NCBI GenBank assembly: GCA_019428905.1
Contig: JAHYJN010000021.1
Span: 1 to 40,984, forward strand
Reading direction: 5' to 3'
Origin: Candidatus Brevefilum sp.
Lineage (GTDB): Bacteria; Chloroflexota; Anaerolineae; Anaerolineales; Anaerolineaceae
Length of the DNA: 40,984 nucleotides
The notes beneath the pieces were generated by a model, which made no database searches, had not been told where the DNA came from, and worked only from the letters and a program-made list of their open reading frames with translations. Positions 7,037 through 21,202 of the stretch are shown piece after piece. The first letter of the stretch is position 1, and every line of letters starts with the position of its first letter. The translations under genes and the position numbers were made by a program.

Positions 7037-7110
7037 TGGCCGGGGCACCAGGATTCGAACCTGGATCAACGGATTCAAAGTCCGCTGTGCTGCCGTTGCA
7101 CCATGCCCCA
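7037..7110 (-). tRNA. tRNA-Gln (anticodon TTG), CCA encoded
   Basis: The minus strand folds as a complete cloverleaf. The acceptor arm is TGGGGCA with TGCCCCG, with a weak U1-G72 pair. The D-stem is GTGC/GCAC. The anticodon stem is GCGGA/TCCGT around loop CTTTGAA, with anticodon TTG at 7076-7078. The T-arm is CCAGG-TTCGAAT-CCTGG. The discriminator base is G73 and the CCA is in the DNA. The weak 1-72 pair and G73 are identity features expected of bacterial tRNA-Gln. No intron is present. The body is 71 nt before CCA. Confidence 0.96.
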
Positions 7111-7684
7111 GAATAGTAGCCATGATTCTAACACATTTTTTGTGGATGTCCAAGATGCGGGTGGATTTCATTAGGGCAATCGCAAAGTCAAATATTTTTG
7201 CAGAATCAACAATCTTCACACTGTAAACACCCCTTCCCGCCCTCCGGGCACCCTTCCCCTCGGTGAGGGGAAGGGCCGGGGATGGGGTCCGTTAACTCAC
7301 GAACAACGATATTACAGACATTTCTACCACTTTGCGATTGCCCTGAGGGTTTCAATCAGGAGGCGAAACCAGACATCCACGCAATTACAATAGCGAAAAA
7401 TTTATTGGCTACCCAATCCGTAGAGACGTTGCATGCAACGTCTTTACGAGCGAACTGGAAATTATCCATTGCCCACCCCGCAGCAACGCCCCGGCGGGGC
7501 GTCTCTACGGATGCAAAACCACAATATTAAAATGTAGGGGCGAGGCATGCCTCGCCCTTGATCCCGATCGCGCAGGGTTTTCTGACCCCATAAATAGCCT
7601 TTTGTCATTGCGAGCCGCCGCAGGCGGCGTGGTAATCTCAGTGTTTTACGCAGGCGTTCTCATCATCGCAAACACAATTCTTTT

Positions 7685-7923
7685 GTCCCCCGGGATTTCC
7701 GCGACAAAGTGGATATCAAAATACTGCCTCCTGCTTATGAAATTTATCAAAAAATTATCTACTTAAAATCCCGGGGGTCTTTGTTTCAAATATTTACCTC
7801 CCGAAATAATGTCTGGAAATGGGCAAGAGCGCCCAAACACAAATCCCGGGGGTCTTTGTCTACGAATAGCTGATTGTTTTCTTTGCATCTAAAATACTGC
7901 ATTCTCCTCAGACCCCCGGGATT
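7685..7923. repeat. CCCGGGGGTC hairpin array A
   Basis: Four copies of a 14-base arm lie at 7685 (GTCCCCCGGGATTT), 7766 and 7841 (AAATCCCGGGGGTC) and 7911 (GACCCCCGGGATT). The order is inverted, direct, direct, inverted, with spacing of 81, 75 and 70 bases. The first pair and the last pair can each form a long hairpin. The spacer sequences recur in arrays B to F. Confidence 0.85.
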
Positions 7924-7963
7924 GTAAACAATGAGTGTGCTGCGTTTGCGCAATTCCCACTTC

Positions 7964-7992
7964 GTAGAGACGCCCCGGTGGGGCGTCTCTAC
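7964..7992. repeat. GTAGAGACGCCCC hairpin (module 1)
   Basis: A perfect 13-bp stem with a GGT loop. Copies lie in the same place relative to the arrays at 9923-9951 and 19475-19503. It is followed eight bases later by the CATTGCGA sequence interrupted by IS110 copy 1. Confidence 0.85.
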
Positions 7993-8010
7993 CTTTTGTC
8001 ATTGCGATTA

Positions 8011-9081
8011 CTATGACCCTGTCAAGGGTACTGATGAGGTTTTTAACGATTGTTTCAATCGTTGTGGATGAATCGAACGATAACCAGCGATATAAGGAGT
8101 CTTTGTTCGCGCGATCGCACAAACCATCCTCAATAATTTATTGGCAATGTTATTGATCACTAATTTTTTCTCTTTCCCTTCGGCAACCTTTCGGATGAAA
8201 TAGTGGGTGTAAATTGGACAGTGTTGCCGAACTGACATGGCTGCTAAATGGATCAAACGCCGCATTGCTGATGGACCGTAATGCCTTGAGGTGGCTTTCT
8301 TGTATCGAGAAGTGCCACTGCTATCCTCGTAGGGACAGATGCCAATATAAGCCGCCAGTGCCTTGGGATTATATGGCTCTGGCGCTGAATGCATTGTCAC
8401 TACCAAAAACGTTGCCAAAGTCTTTCCAATTCCTGGAACAGTTTCTAGTAATTTCTGTAGTTCCTTTGCTGCTGGATCTTCGTCAATCAGGCGTTGTATT
8501 TCCGCTTCAATCTCTTTGATGTGTTTTTCAAGTTCTTTGATCGCCTTTTGATGCACGCCTTCTGCTAGTGGTGTCCGCACAACTTTGCGCTTGATGGCTC
8601 TATTTGCGTTCTTATGCCCTGTTTTTTGTACCACAAGCTGTTCCCGCAGCGTCAAAAGGGTCTTTATTTGCTCTATTGCTACGTCTTTGGGTTGCCAATC
8701 CCTGAGTTGATCAAAGAATCGGTATGCATATTCTGCAATCTGTCGGCTATCGACGGGATCGCTTTTGTGGCCTTCTGGGTCAAAGGCCCGTTTGACTTTC
8801 AAAGGAGCTTCAATAACCAGTTGATACCCATTGCTCACTAAAAAGTATGCCAGGGCTTCTCCATAAACCCCGGTGGCTTCCATGCACACAATGCTGTTGG
8901 TGGGTATTGCTTGATTTGTTTCCAGCCAATATCGATATTGACTGAAAGTATCGTAATCATTTTCAAACGTGGTCGGTTTAGCTACAATCTCCCAGCCTGA
9001 CTGCTCTTTAAATTGTCCTATTGATGCAGTAAAAGTTTCCGATGCTATATCAATACCTACAAAGTATTTCGGTCTGTTCAT
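8011..9081 (-). CDS. IS110-family transposase (DEDD recombinase), copy 1
   Basis: This is the RNA-guided serine/DEDD recombinase of an IS110 element. The 356-residue product has the N-terminal RuvC-like DEDD domain, with D11 in VGIDIAS, E68 in CMEATGVYG, and D108 and D111 in KSDPVDSRQIAEYA. A coiled-coil linker at about 175-210 follows. The C-terminal Transposase_20 domain has VPGIGKTLA, an HhH-like segment, and the probable catalytic serine at 254/255 in PYEDSSGTSRYKKA. The ATG at 9081 has AGGAGG five bases upstream; the frame is open for 43 more codons, but those lie in the guide-RNA region. It looks intact. Compared with copy 2 it differs at three residues, all near the C-terminus. Confidence 0.93.
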   Translation of the reverse strand: MNRPKYFVGIDIASETFTASIGQFKEQSGWEIVAKPTTFENDYDTFSQYRYWLETNQAIPTNSIVCMEATGVYGEALAYFLVSNGYQLVIEAPLKVKRAFDPEGHKSDPVDSRQIAEYAYRFFDQLRDWQPKDVAIEQIKTLLTLREQLVVQKTGHKNANRAIKRKVVRTPLAEGVHQKAIKELEKHIKEIEAEIQRLIDEDPAAKELQKLLETVPGIGKTLATFLVVTMHSAPEPYNPKALAAYIGICPYEDSSGTSRYKKATSRHYGPSAMRRLIHLAAMSVRQHCPIYTHYFIRKVAEGKEKKLVINNIANKLLRMVCAIARTKTPYIAGYRSIHPQRLKQSLKTSSVPLTGS

Positions 9082-9106
9082 TTCAGCCTCCTGGTGTAAA
9101 TGGTGT

Positions 9107-9279
9107 AAAATGAGATTAGTCGAACATTGTGGATTGAACTTTCTCCATGTATTAGTCTCCTGGACGTCATTACTATCTAGTTTTGATCCACACAAGGGCT
9201 GGGTCTTCATCGCAATTCAGGCTTGGTGTCCTTCGAGAGCCATAGACTTATTCAGCCCTTGTTCGACTAACCTCATCTT
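9107..9279 (-). ncRNA. Predicted IS110 bridge RNA, copy 1
   Basis: The 173-nt minus-strand segment before the transposase is closed by a 20-base stem (9260-9279 with 9107-9126; 18 Watson-Crick and two G-U pairs). Inside are two stem-loops. The 5' one (stem ACAAGGGCTG/CAGCCCTTGT, 9253-9262 with 9192-9201) carries ATTGCGA at 9210-9216, complementary to the core plus right target flank TCGCAAT. The 3' one (TGTGGAT/ATCCACA, 9186-9192 with 9128-9134) carries ATAGTAAT at 9169-9176, identical to the transposase-distal element end, and ATGGA at 9144-9148, complementary to core plus left end. Target loop first and donor loop second, with this size, matches the published IS621 bridge RNA. The left target guide is weak (TCTC only). 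Confidence 0.75.
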
Positions 9280-9318
9280 AGCACAGCTTGTTCTCTTGAC
9301 CTAACTAAGTCTAATGGA

Positions 9319-9569
9319 GAAGCTTCGAAGAAGCGCCGAAGCAATCTCGATAGTTGACATACCGGAGAATTATTCTTTTTGGGATTAGTTCACGAGAGGT
9401 TTAGTCTGAGATTGCTTCTTCGCTACGCTCATCGCAATGACAAGAATTTTTTTACCATTCACCCTTCACCATTCATGAAATCCCCGAAGCGTAGCGGAGT
9501 GGGACCATTCACTATTCACAACATTGAGATTGCTTCCTCGCTGCGCTCGTCGCAATGACAATTTAACTT
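9319..9569. repeat. REP-like inverted pair and simple repeats right of IS110 copy 1
   Basis: The right half of the interrupted repeat (GAAGCTTCGAAGAAGCGCC, ending AATCTCG at 9349) is followed by about 60 unique bases. An inverted relative, GAGATTGCTTCTTCGC...CGCAATGACA, lies at about 9409-9441, and another at about 9526-9560. No gene is seen. Confidence 0.7.
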
Positions 9570-9882
9570 GTCCCCCGGGATTTCCGCGACAAAGTGGATA
9601 TCAAAATACTGCCTCCTGCTTATGAAATTTATCAAAAAATTATCTTCTTAAAATCCCGGGGGTCTTTGTTTCAAATATTTACCTCCCGAATTAATGTCTG
9701 AAAAGATGCAAGAGCACCCAAACATAAATCCCGGGGGTCTATGTTTTAATTTTCTACCTCTGGTAAAGCATGACTAGAAATATGCAGAACTAACCAAACA
9801 CAAATCCCGGGGGTCTTTGTCTTATATTGGCCGATTTTTTCTCGTATCCAAATTAGCGCATTCTCCTCAGACCCCCGGGATT
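9570..9882. repeat. CCCGGGGGTC hairpin array B
   Basis: Five arms lie at 9570 (inverted), 9651, 9726 and 9802 (direct) and 9870 (inverted), with spacing of 81, 75, 76 and 68 bases. The two middle units are diverged copies of one about 75-base tandem unit ending CCAAACAC or CCAAACAT. It has one more middle unit than array A. Confidence 0.85.
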
Positions 9883-9922
9883 GTAAACAATGAGTGCGCT
9901 GCGTTTGCGCAATTCCCACTTC

Positions 9923-9998
9923 GTAGAGACGCCCCGCCGGAGCGTCTCTACCTTTTGTCATTGCGAGAAGCTTCGAAGAAGCGCCGAAGCAATCTCGT
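9923..9998. repeat. Unoccupied IS110 target module: GTAGAGACG hairpin plus REP-like repeat
   Basis: A GTAGAGACGCCCC hairpin (9923-9951, one mismatch) is followed by CATTGCGAGAAGCTTCGAAG... starting at 9959. The whole stretch from the end of array B matches the left flanks of both IS110 copies and runs straight through the point where they are interrupted, between 9966 and 9967. It serves as a natural empty site. Confidence 0.85.
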
Positions 9999-10146: not shown

Positions 10147-10157
10147 CTATTTAACTT

Positions 10158-10564
10158 GTCCCCCGGGATTTCCGCGACAAAGTGGAAATCAAAATACTGC
10201 CTCCTGCTTATGAAATTTATCAAAATATTATCTTCTTAAAATCCCGGGGGTCTTTGTTTTAATTTTCTACCTCTGGCAAAGCAAGACTAGAAATATGCAG
10301 AACTAACCAAACAAACACAATTCTTTTGTCCCCCGGGATTTCCGGTACTTTGAGGATATAAAAATACTTTGACCTCCTGATGGGATTGACCAATAAAGTA
10401 TCTTCTTAAAATCCCGGGGGGCTTTGTTACAAATATTTACCTCCCGAAATAATGTCTGGAAATGGGCAAGAGCGCCCAAACACAAATCCCGGGGGTCTTT
10501 GTCTTATATTAGCCGATTTTATCTCGTATCCAAATTAGCGCATTCTCCTCAGACCCCCGGGATT
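10158..10564. repeat. CCCGGGGGTC hairpin array C
   Basis: This is the longest array. Arms lie at 10158 (inverted), 10239 (direct), 10328 (inverted), 10409 (direct, GGGGGGC variant), 10484 (direct) and 10552 (inverted). It looks like two arrays joined, because the inverted first-unit type occurs twice. It ends about 105 bases before the end of the operon 1 permease gene, where it could act on transcript ends; that is inference. Confidence 0.85.
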
Positions 10565-10669
10565 GTAAACACCAGTTGGGTTACGTTTGCACAATTGCCG
10601 ACCCCGCAGCAACGCCCCGGCGGGGGCGTTGTGACGAATGATATTAATATAAAACCTAATGGCAAGAAT

Positions 10670-19069: not shown

Positions 19070-19194
19070 CAACGTCGCTGCGATCGAGCCGGAAATTACC
19101 CGTTGCCTACCCCGTAGAGACACCTCTACCCCCGATTGCGCAGGGTCTCCTGACCCTGCGCAGATGAGAACACGAGTGCAAACACAAATCTTTT

Positions 19195-19503
19195 GTCCCC
19201 CGGGATTTCCGCAACAAAGTGGAAATCAAAATACTGCCTTCTGCTTATGAAATTTATCAAAATATTATCTTCTTAAAATCCCGGGGGTCTATGTTTTAAT
19301 TTTCTACCTCTGGTAAAGCAAGACTAGAAATATGCAAGCGTATCCAAACACAAATCCCGGGGGGCTTTGTCTGATTATGGTTGTATATTTTTCTCGTATC
19401 CCAATTAGCGCAATCTCTTCAGACCCCCGGGATTTTAAACAACGTTTTGTCTATGTTTGCACAATTACCACCTCGTAGCGACGCCCCGCCGGGGCGTCTC
19501 TAC
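19195..19503. repeat. CCCGGGGGTC hairpin array E with adjacent GTAGCGACG hairpin
   Basis: Arms lie at 19195 (inverted), 19276 (direct), 19352 (direct, GGGGGGC variant) and 19422 (inverted). A GTAGCGACGCCCC/GGGGCGTCTCTAC hairpin follows at 19475-19503, then the CATTGCGA interrupted by IS110 copy 2. This is the same module order as array A with copy 1 and as the empty site after array B. Confidence 0.85.
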
Positions 19504-19521
19504 CTTTTGTCATTGCGATTA

Positions 19522-20592
19522 CTATGACCCTGTCAAGGGTATTTGTGAGGTTTTTAACGATTGTTTCAATCGTTGTGGATGAATAGAACGATAACCAGCG
19601 ATGTAAGGAGTCTTTGTTCGTGCGATCGCACATACCATCCTCAAAAGTTTATTTGCAATATTGTTGATTACCAATTTTTTCTCTTTCCCTTCTGCAACCT
19701 TTCGAATGAAATAGTGAGTGTACATCGGACAGTGTTGCCGAACTGACATGGCTGCTAAATGGATCAAACGCCGCATTGCTGATGGACCGTAATGCCTTGA
19801 GGTGGCTTTCTTGTATCGAGAAGTGCCACTGCTATCCTCGTAGGGACAGATGCCAATATAAGCCGCCAGTGCCTTGGGATTATATGGCTCTGGCGCTGAA
19901 TGCATTGTCACTACCAAAAACGTTGCCAAAGTCTTTCCAATTCCTGGAACAGTTTCTAGTAATTTCTGTAGTTCCTTTGCTGCTGGATCTTCGTCAATCA
20001 GGCGTTGTATTTCCGCTTCAATCTCTTTGATGTGTTTTTCAAGTTCTTTGATCGCCTTTTGATGCACGCCTTCTGCTAGTGGTGTCCGCACAACTTTGCG
20101 CTTGATGGCTCTATTTGCGTTCTTATGCCCTGTTTTTTGTACCACAAGCTGTTCCCGCAGCGTCAAAAGGGTCTTTATTTGCTCTATTGCTACGTCTTTG
20201 GGTTGCCAATCCCTGAGTTGATCAAAGAATCGGTATGCATATTCTGCAATCTGTCGGCTATCGACGGGATCGCTTTTGTGGCCTTCTGGGTCAAAGGCCC
20301 GTTTGACTTTCAAAGGAGCTTCAATAACCAGTTGATACCCATTGCTCACTAAAAAGTATGCCAGGGCTTCTCCATAAACCCCGGTGGCTTCCATGCACAC
20401 AATGCTGTTGGTGGGTATTGCTTGATTTGTTTCCAGCCAATATCGATATTGACTGAAAGTATCGTAATCATTTTCAAACGTGGTCGGTTTAGCTACAATC
20501 TCCCAGCCTGACTGCTCTTTAAATTGTCCTATTGATGCAGTAAAAGTTTCCGATGCTATATCAATACCTACAAAGTATTTCGGTCTGTTCAT
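19522..20592 (-). CDS. IS110-family transposase (DEDD recombinase), copy 2
   Basis: This 356-residue DEDD recombinase carries the same D11/E68/D108/D111 set and SSG serine region as copy 1. The start is the ATG at 20592 with AGGAGG five bases upstream. The last 70 or so codons differ from copy 1 at many silent positions but at only three residues (one I/M near 290, and SV versus QI at 350-351). Both copies have therefore been under selection as working proteins since they separated, while the rest of the gene was made identical more recently. Both can be expected to be active with either guide RNA. Confidence 0.93.
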   Translation of the reverse strand: MNRPKYFVGIDIASETFTASIGQFKEQSGWEIVAKPTTFENDYDTFSQYRYWLETNQAIPTNSIVCMEATGVYGEALAYFLVSNGYQLVIEAPLKVKRAFDPEGHKSDPVDSRQIAEYAYRFFDQLRDWQPKDVAIEQIKTLLTLREQLVVQKTGHKNANRAIKRKVVRTPLAEGVHQKAIKELEKHIKEIEAEIQRLIDEDPAAKELQKLLETVPGIGKTLATFLVVTMHSAPEPYNPKALAAYIGICPYEDSSGTSRYKKATSRHYGPSAMRRLIHLAAMSVRQHCPMYTHYFIRKVAEGKEKKLVINNIANKLLRMVCAIARTKTPYIAGYRSIHPQRLKQSLKTSQIPLTGS

Positions 20593-20617
20593 TTCAGCCT
20601 CCTGGTGTAAATGGTGT

Positions 20618-20790
20618 AAAATGAGATTAGTCGAACATTGTGGATTGAACTTTCTCCATGTATTAGTCTCCTGGACGTCATTACTATCTAGTTTTGATCC
20701 ACACAAGGGCTGGGTCTTCATCGCAATTCAGGCTTGGTGTCCTTCGAGAGCCATAGACTTATTCAGCCCTTGTTCGACTAACCTCATCTT
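20618..20790 (-). ncRNA. Predicted IS110 bridge RNA, copy 2
   Basis: This segment is identical in sequence to the copy 1 prediction (offset 11,511 bases), so it has the same closing stem, target loop with ATTGCGA and donor loop with ATAGTAAT and ATGGA. Being identical, it gives no independent covariation support. Confidence 0.72.
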
Positions 20791-20962
20791 AGCACAGCTT
20801 GTTCTCTTGACCTAACTAAGTCTAATGGAGAAGCTTCGAAGAAGCGCCGAAGCAATCTCGATAGTGGACATACCGGAGAATTATTCTTTTTGTGATTAGT
20901 TCACGGGAGGCTTATTCTGAGATTGCTTCTTCGCTGCGCTCATCGCAATGACAATTTAACTT

Positions 20963-21202
20963 GTCCCCCGGGATTTCTGCGACAAAGTGGATCTAAAAAT
21001 ACCACCTGCTGTTGATAAGATTCGTCAATAAAATATCCTCTTAAAATCCCGGGGGTCTATGTTTTAATTTTCTACCTCTGGTAAAGCAAGACTAGAAATA
21101 TGCAAGCGTATCCAAACACAAATCCCGGGGGTCTTTGTCTGATTATGGTTGAATATTTTTCTCGTATCCCAATTAGCGCAATCTCCTCAGACCCCCAGGA
21201 TT
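20963..21202. repeat. CCCGGGGGTC hairpin array F
   Basis: Arms lie at 20963 (inverted), 21044 and 21120 (direct) and 21190 (inverted, CCCCCAGG variant). It ends just beyond the operon 2 terminator. A REP-like GAGATTGCTTC element (about 20920-20952) precedes it. Confidence 0.85.

Follow-up and report, generated by a model that had tools for sequence, protein, structure and literature searches.

The 40,984-nucleotide stretch of DNA analyzed here (contig JAHYJN010000021.1 of the Candidatus Brevefilum sp. assembly GCA_019428905.1, forward strand; hereafter the window) contains an IS110-type element with a 173-nt segment just upstream of the recombinase gene and on the same strand. The question raised by this locus is whether the segment is a bridge RNA and, if so, which core dinucleotide the element uses. 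Our analysis indicates that the segment is very probably the bridge RNA of an IS110-group element, which would guide the element's own DEDD recombinase, and that the core is probably TC. The basis for this is sequence, fold and guide-flank covariation, junction spacing, protein family, and predicted protein fold; transcription, RNA binding, circularization, and recombination are presumed by analogy with IS621.

A first-pass annotation, made from the letters of the window, had described a 20-bp closing stem with two G-U pairs enclosing two stem-loops, and the segment folds as described. The minus strand gave -55.8 kcal/mol, compared with a mean of -37.45 kcal/mol for 200 shuffles, none of which was as low (z, -4.62). 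The plus strand also folds stably, as expected of a complement, and was rejected, the minus strand being fixed by the ribosome site, the gene strand, and the guides. When 28 distinct bridge RNAs were aligned (the window's and about 27 relatives), RNAalifold returned six helices: besides the closing stem, the target arm has two and a small hairpin, and the donor arm has two. Consensus pairs are 90.6% paired, and 24 of the 30 pairs change on both sides. The covariation score was 0.493, versus 0.221 for shuffled alignments (0/500) and 0.13 to 0.16 after a one-column slide, a control biased toward the structure, which came from the same alignment. The closing stem reaches 9.4 bp with an RNA's own 3' arm and 6.2 bp with swapped arms (0/10,000). 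Some members have only 39 to 48 nt from the core to the target-loop anchor, leaving no room for a 33-nt stem-loop; the 5' end of the RNA is a predicted one. The segment had no Rfam match at gathering scores; two matches at an E value of ≤1 were dismissed as chance (14 bits versus cutoffs of 37 to 38). In the bridge RNA of L037 (124-321), a stretch of the donor-loop part that contains the right donor guide is duplicated in tandem (CCGTCCCAGACGAGTAATGG occurs twice).

The relatives come from a scan of genome contigs, from which the best 80 of 105 loci were taken. Among these, proteins with at least about 39% identity are separated by a gap from the others, at about 32% or less, and the former are referred to here as the clade. 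In a tree of 67 proteins, a branch of length 0.99 with support of 100/100 separates the 26 clade rows from all others. The nearest named relatives among these 80 loci are Anaerolineaceae contigs from metagenome-assembled genomes (MAGs), and the row labels of the clade are Chloroflexota, Planctomycetota, Myxococcota, Ignavibacteriota, Fidelibacterota, Thermodesulfobacteriota, and Bacteroidota. Duplicates or second copies (L001, L002, L004, L005, and L007), a locus without a start (L008), one without a left end (L049), and two partial loci (L067 and L068) were dropped before counting, and L115, a later find, stands outside the counts. The right end is missing in L060 and L065, the left-target letters are missing in L033, and the right-target letters are incomplete in L052. 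Where one element had further insertions (L058 and L061 to L063, with L059; L064 to L066, with L056), a single copy supplied the RNA for scoring them, and they were kept out of the one-per-RNA counts. At an E value of ≤1e-60, 2 of 400 genomes matched in the phylum search and 3 of 396 in the class search, G000 being one of them in each; viral contigs gave two distant relatives, and the 1,526 matching plasmid records all fell below 60% identity (32% for the best ranked of the 20 listed). L041, L057, and L005 have in-frame stops within the matched recombinase range; decayed members or sequence errors thus exist among the relatives.

The comparison of guides with flanking DNA supports the bridge RNA assignment. 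Target and donor positions are numbered t1 to t14 and d1 to d14, and the four guides are the left and right target guides (LTG and RTG) and the left and right donor guides (LDG and RDG). The first-pass annotation had pointed to ATTGCGA in the first loop as complementary to the core and right target, to ATAGTAAT in the second loop as identical to the transposase-side end into the core, and to ATGGA as complementary to the core and the other end. Each was found in place, with 7/7 and 8/8 agreement for the first two and with ATGGA (9144-9148) forming part of a longer guide, UA-C-AUGGA, that covers d8 to d14. Shuffling the letters of the 173-nt segment 200,000 times produced the RTG 7-mer in 1.2% of cases, the LDG 8-mer in 0.6%, and both in 0.0075%. 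The comparative test is far stronger: across the clade, the LTG, RTG, and LDG matched their own flanks better than swapped flanks (0/20,000 permutations each). Without eight near-relatives, the counts for the LTG, RTG, LDG, and RDG were 0, 0, 0, and 220 of 20,000, leaving the result unchanged. It had also been proposed at the outset that relatives with different ends or targets should have correspondingly changed loops, and for most of the guides they do. Most other loops and wrong strands gave no guide signal. The exceptions below 10%, in 5,000 permutations, were the right target in sense orientation (target loop 3' side, 24; donor loop 5' side, 310), the reverse-complement left donor (donor loop 3' side, 130), and the left target (donor loop 5' side, 161); they differ from the swapped mean by at most 0.4 letters, versus 1.4 to 2.1 letters for the three true guides.

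The limits of these guides are sharp, with the RTG covering target positions t8 to t14 and the LDG covering donor positions d1 to d8. Over t8 to t14, the RTG pairs in 26, 26, 25, 24, 23, 24, and 25 of 26 rows, and at the next two positions in 5 and 2. Over d1 to d8, the LDG agrees in 24, 25, 27, 26, 26, 27, 23, and 25 of 27 rows, with 0/27 at both d0 and d9. The RDG pairs with d8 to d12 in 28, 28, 28, 28, and 27 of 28 rows, and its invariant UA pairs with d13 and d14 across a bulge of 0 (9 rows), 1 (6 rows), or 2 (13 rows) nt. The left target had been called unclear in the first pass, with an incomplete target rule. The guide itself could be located as AUGGCUCUC, which matches AAGCTTCTC at six of nine positions, and the incompleteness has held: agreement at t1 to t9 was 10, 10, 18, 17, 17, 22, 22, 25, and 23 of 27; clade-wide, t1 and t2 lie at or below the swapped level, and agreement rises toward the core. 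In one Chloroflexi MAG, CFX11, a single element has inserted into five different repeats (L058, L059, L061, L062, and L063); scored with one guide, these insertions match the LTG at 5, 6, 6, 7, and 7 of 9 positions, and each has the right target TCGCAATGACA. The best recombinase matches of these insertions are partial (210 to 270 aa), as if frameshifted. From these alignments, the target rule of the clade reads as a strict right target combined with a lax, core-proximal left target, and since the left guide is lax across the clade, the incomplete rule of the first pass is the rule of the clade.

In IS621, once the top strands have been exchanged, the nucleotides following the RTG and RDG pair with the other DNA at positions 7 and 6 (PMC11208158). 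In the clade, the nucleotide after the RTG pairs with d7 in 21 of 27 rows (13.3 expected; 27/20,000 permutations), and that after the RDG pairs with t7 in 23 of 27 (18.45 expected; 115/20,000). Pairing of these first handshake nucleotides with the cognate strand is avoided (0/27 and 1/27).

The protein encoded downstream carries the DEDD (RuvC-like) and Tnp (Transposase_20) domains of the IS110 group. Both Pfam models scored over their cutoffs (PF01548, 79.2 bits; PF02371, 57.1 bits), as did NCBIfam NF033542 (187.8 versus 140), and D11, E68, D108, D111, and S255-G256 are invariant in 30 aligned proteins. An AGGAGG motif, the likely ribosome site, and the start codon follow directly downstream of the RNA segment; this site and the relatives support a gene start at 9081. 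A longer ATG frame (8011-9210, 399 aa) runs over the bridge RNA, and automatic annotation may start the gene there. The region upstream of the gene measures 235 nt (9082-9316), and the right end (RE) overlaps the stop codon, the layout of the IS110 group; as this TAG lies within the left donor sequence (CATAGTAA, 8008-8014), coding and donor functions overlap.

IS621 produces its bridge RNA from a promoter at the junction of the RE and the left end (LE) (PMC11208158), and such a promoter would be rebuilt by the sequence of the predicted junction here. Clade members have TTGACA (or TTGAnn) in the RE and TAGACT (TAGATT in one) in the LE, and in the predicted circles, whose 30 junctions represent 24 distinct RNAs, the two boxes are spaced by 17 nt in all but one case, which has 18 nt; since the end-finding patterns fixed TAGA by the core and allowed a range to TGA, only that range was free in the spacing. 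A consensus promoter scan of the integrated element (7950-9400) found no minus-strand promoter-like site, which fits, and does not prove, a junction promoter.

The window holds two near-identical elements of this type. The minus strand carries both, their recombinase genes span 8011-9081 and 19522-20592, and these are the only element or protein matches in the 3.04-Mb assembly at an E value of ≤0.001. In the direction of the gene, copy 1 reads AAGCTTC-TC-CATTAGACTT...RNA...gene...CATAGTAA-TC-GCAATGAC. The copies show no differences in a stretch of 1,139 bp (8216-9354) that extends 36 bp into the flank past the LE core; the adjoining 185 bp toward the 3' end (8031-8215 versus 19542-19726) hold 19 differences, a mosaic that suggests gene conversion between the two. 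Coordinates are collected in Table 1.

Table 1. Predicted features of the IS110-group element and its bridge RNA in the window
Feature	Positions	Strand	Remarks
Bridge RNA, 173 nt	9107-9279	-	Fold, covariation, guide tests
Copy 2 bridge RNA, same 173 nt	20618-20790	-	
Closing stem P1, 5' arm	9260-9279	-	Pairs with 9107-9126
Closing stem P1, 3' arm	9107-9126	-	
LTG AUGGCUCUC	9235-9243	-	6/9 with t1-t9
RTG AUUGCGA	9210-9216	-	7/7 with t8-t14
Handshake guide 1, UG	9208-9209	-	First nt pairs with d7; second not with d6
LDG AUAGUAAU	9169-9176	-	8/8 with d1-d8
RDG UA-C-AUGGA	9144-9151	-	d8-d14, one bulged C
Handshake guide 2, GA	9142-9143	-	Pairs with t7 and t6
IS110 DEDD recombinase, 356 aa + stop	8011-9081	-	Pfam, NCBIfam, predicted fold
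TTGACA in RE, predicted -35 box of circle junction promoter	8020-8025	-	
TAGACT in LE, predicted -10 box	9308-9313	-	17 nt from TTGACA across junction
Element body, copy 1	8008-9316	-	1309 bp between two TC cores
Probable core TC, LE, copy 1	9317-9318	-	
Probable core TC, RE, copy 1	8006-8007	-	
Left target t1-t7, AAGCTTC	9319-9325	-	
Right target t10-t14, GCAAT	8001-8005	-	
Left donor d1-d7, ATAGTAA	8008-8014	-	Overlaps recombinase stop codon
Right donor d10-d14, CATTA	9312-9316	-	
Second element copy	19519-20827	-	TC cores 19517-19518 and 20828-20829
Uninterrupted target repeat GCTTCTCGCAATGAC	9957-9971	-	Empty-site form, single TC

With regard to the core, IS621 and its orthologues use CT, T9 being recognized through the main-chain amide of G63 and the C8 partner through N84, and the second-position T is almost invariant in the IS621 structural work (PMC11208158). 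The T at position 9 that marks this subgroup is absent here. Core-binding RNA letters are GA in 28 of 28 RNAs at both the RTG and the RDG, and of 31 insertions, 29 have precisely TC as the sequence common to the two ends and 2 have one base more, a figure that is conditional because the end finder required TC. The column equivalent to N84 holds A (12), P (15), H (1), and N (1) in 29 clade proteins, compared with N (42), L (13), D (2), and Y (1) in 58 others. A multiple alignment anchored on P equates N84 with A92 of the window protein and a pairwise HMMER alignment sets it against E91; by either, the asparagine is absent. The N84-equivalent residue may set the core. A comparison of right ends among six multicopy outgroups showed GACGGTATCT, which fits CT, in four of them, the Ramlibacter and Weeksellaceae outgroups being without it; from these right ends, CT cores in outgroup elements are a lead. 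A likely overall picture is that of a separate bridge-recombinase lineage that uses TC rather than CT as its core and has lost the core-reading asparagine. Across hosts from several phyla, its guides would have kept pace with the versions that a single dispersed GTCA-type palindromic repeat takes in each lineage. The result would be records of natural reprogramming and a core orthogonal to that of IS621.

The repeats in question can be seen in the targets. Positions t15 to t17 are GAC in 20 of 26 rows and the RNA hardly pairs there, indicating that most elements sit in repeats that start with GTCA on the other strand. Versions of this repeat include GTCATTGCGA, GTCATTCTGA, GTCACACTGA, and GTCAGTCTGA; the RTG varies along with them. 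In the window, CTCGCAATGAC-like sites with at most one mismatch occur 8 times (0.67 expected), 2 of these being element junctions. IS621, likewise, reportedly transposes to repetitive extragenic palindromes (Choi et al., 2003). By eye, both elements are surrounded by several copies of a long dispersed repeat whose ends read CCCCCGGGATT/AATCCCGGGGGTCT (at about 7680-7930, 9570-9890, 10150-10570, 19190-19440, and 20960-21190), intermixed with CATTGCGAG and GTAGAGACGCCCC repeats. A tRNA-Gln (TTG) gene (7037-7110, minus strand) adjoins the repeat-rich stretch that holds copy 1.

Several observations weigh against the interpretation given above. The RDG test is weak (221/20,000 permutations reach the observed value) because donor right ends hardly vary (TCCATTA in 25 of 28 rows), and the permutations leave relatedness in. 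At the second handshake position, pairing of 82 with d6 is weak (14/27; 507/20,000) and that of 167 with t6 shows no signal (5/27; 7,000/20,000); in the window element, U81 pairs with d7 and G82 does not pair with d6. A 15-mer of LTG and right target is not enriched in the genome at up to three mismatches (58 sites versus 59 for a reversed control), and no genome site has 0 or 1 mismatch. The two copies are, given their shared 1,139 bp and subsequent differences, not independent; the window LTG matches at only six positions; and all named clade relatives (L033 to L068) are MAG contigs, so that single taxon labels may be wrong. Some of these points recur in the idea that the RNA is real and the window copies are old remnants of a system that once worked, in which target letters or guide have since drifted. 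The imperfect LTG match, the lack of a perfect target in the assembly, the 19 differences at the 3' ends, and the presence of only two genome copies would all be in keeping with such decay. We nevertheless regard it as doubtful, since both reading frames are open, the RTG, LDG, and junction promoter letters are intact, and the five CFX11 insertions of a sister element also match their LTG at only 5 to 7 of 9 positions, which makes lax left targets usual in the clade.

The hairpins might instead form a 5' regulatory leader of the recombinase mRNA, acting in attenuation or translation control, with guide matches due to shared ancestry. The position directly upstream of the likely ribosome site and start codon would suit a leader; a leader gives no reason for letter-by-letter covariation with host DNA outside the element or for exact stops at t14 and d8, mainly in the expected loops, and we consider this explanation extremely improbable. 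It is also very improbable that the core is really CT or at another offset and that TC is an artifact of end finding. The LE and RE patterns did require TC, along with TAGA and an upstream TGA, which counts against our assignment, and the ends of three loci that they missed and that were placed by hand (L036, L054, and L057) also lie at TC. The GA letters of the RNA are independent of the pattern, the neighbors of the shared TC differ between the ends, and the empty repeat in the window has one TC.

With the segment read as a bridge RNA, the element would circularize. At the junction RE-TC-LE, TTGACA and TAGACT would come to lie 17 nt apart and so form again a promoter that would transcribe bridge RNA and recombinase. 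The closing stem would hold the target-binding and donor-binding loops. The LTG would pair with the bottom strand up to the core, the RTG with top-strand t8 to t14, the LDG with bottom-strand d1 to d8, and the RDG with top-strand d8 to d14, with a bulge of 0 to 2 nt. Once strands have been exchanged, the nucleotide after each right guide would pair with the other DNA at position 7. The recombinase would join the circular form to the target repeat, probably at the TC core.

Compared with IS621 of Escherichia coli (IS110 group; PMC11208160 and PMC11208158), the window recombinase shows 23% identity in a structural alignment and shares the DEDD recombinase, Tnp domain, and catalytic serine. Also in common are an RNA gene upstream of the recombinase, a structured RNA with target loop and then donor loop whose guides covary (the RDG weakly), an 8-nt LDG ending on the first core base, an RDG with a short bulge, handshake guides, and a predicted RE-LE junction promoter. 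The LDG of IS621, A123-C130, pairs with eight bottom-strand bases, dT14-dG7, which we read as top-strand d1 to d8, and two nucleotides are flipped out at the bulge of its RDG (PMC11208158); the guide map of the clade fits that of IS621. The first-pass claim of agreement with the IS621 mechanism thus stands for loop order and strand polarity and fails for the core (TC, not CT) and probably for the covarying closing stem that the clade has where IS621 has a 5' stem-loop. The clade differs further in its RTG, 7 nt throughout versus 4 nt, extendable to 7, in IS621, with longer RTGs in some orthologues (PMC11208160); in an LTG that is effectively t3 to t9; and in having A or P in the N84 column in 27 of 29 proteins, whereas ISCro4 (PDB 9t56) keeps the INPA motif that holds N84 in IS621. 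Recombinases of the IS1111 group belong to the same DEDD family, and their targets are likewise chosen by an RNA guide (PMC11187229), but this group usually carries its RNA downstream of the gene and has long subterminal inverted repeats; in the window, the RNA lies upstream. TIGR-Tas systems have guide arrays and no transposition (PMC12045711), and the TIGR-Tas NCBIfam score of the window protein, 35.8, is far under the cutoff of 100.

The structural work on IS621 rests on a CT core (PMC11208158), so a TC clade would show that the core is changeable in nature and would make the change from N84 to A or P near the core a testable switch. The recurrence of the d1 to d8 boundary, handshake pairing, and junction promoter at about 23% identity to IS621 is an independent test of the guide map, and the laxness of left targets in natural insertions bears on specificity. 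Taken together, the comparative data raise one legible example to a tested clade-wide rule. A TC-core clade is not mentioned in the listed titles and abstract openings on the topic, a scope that leaves figures, supplements, and subscription papers aside. On this scope, we describe the clade as a TC-core variant, apparently new, within the known IS110 bridge system rather than as new in kind.
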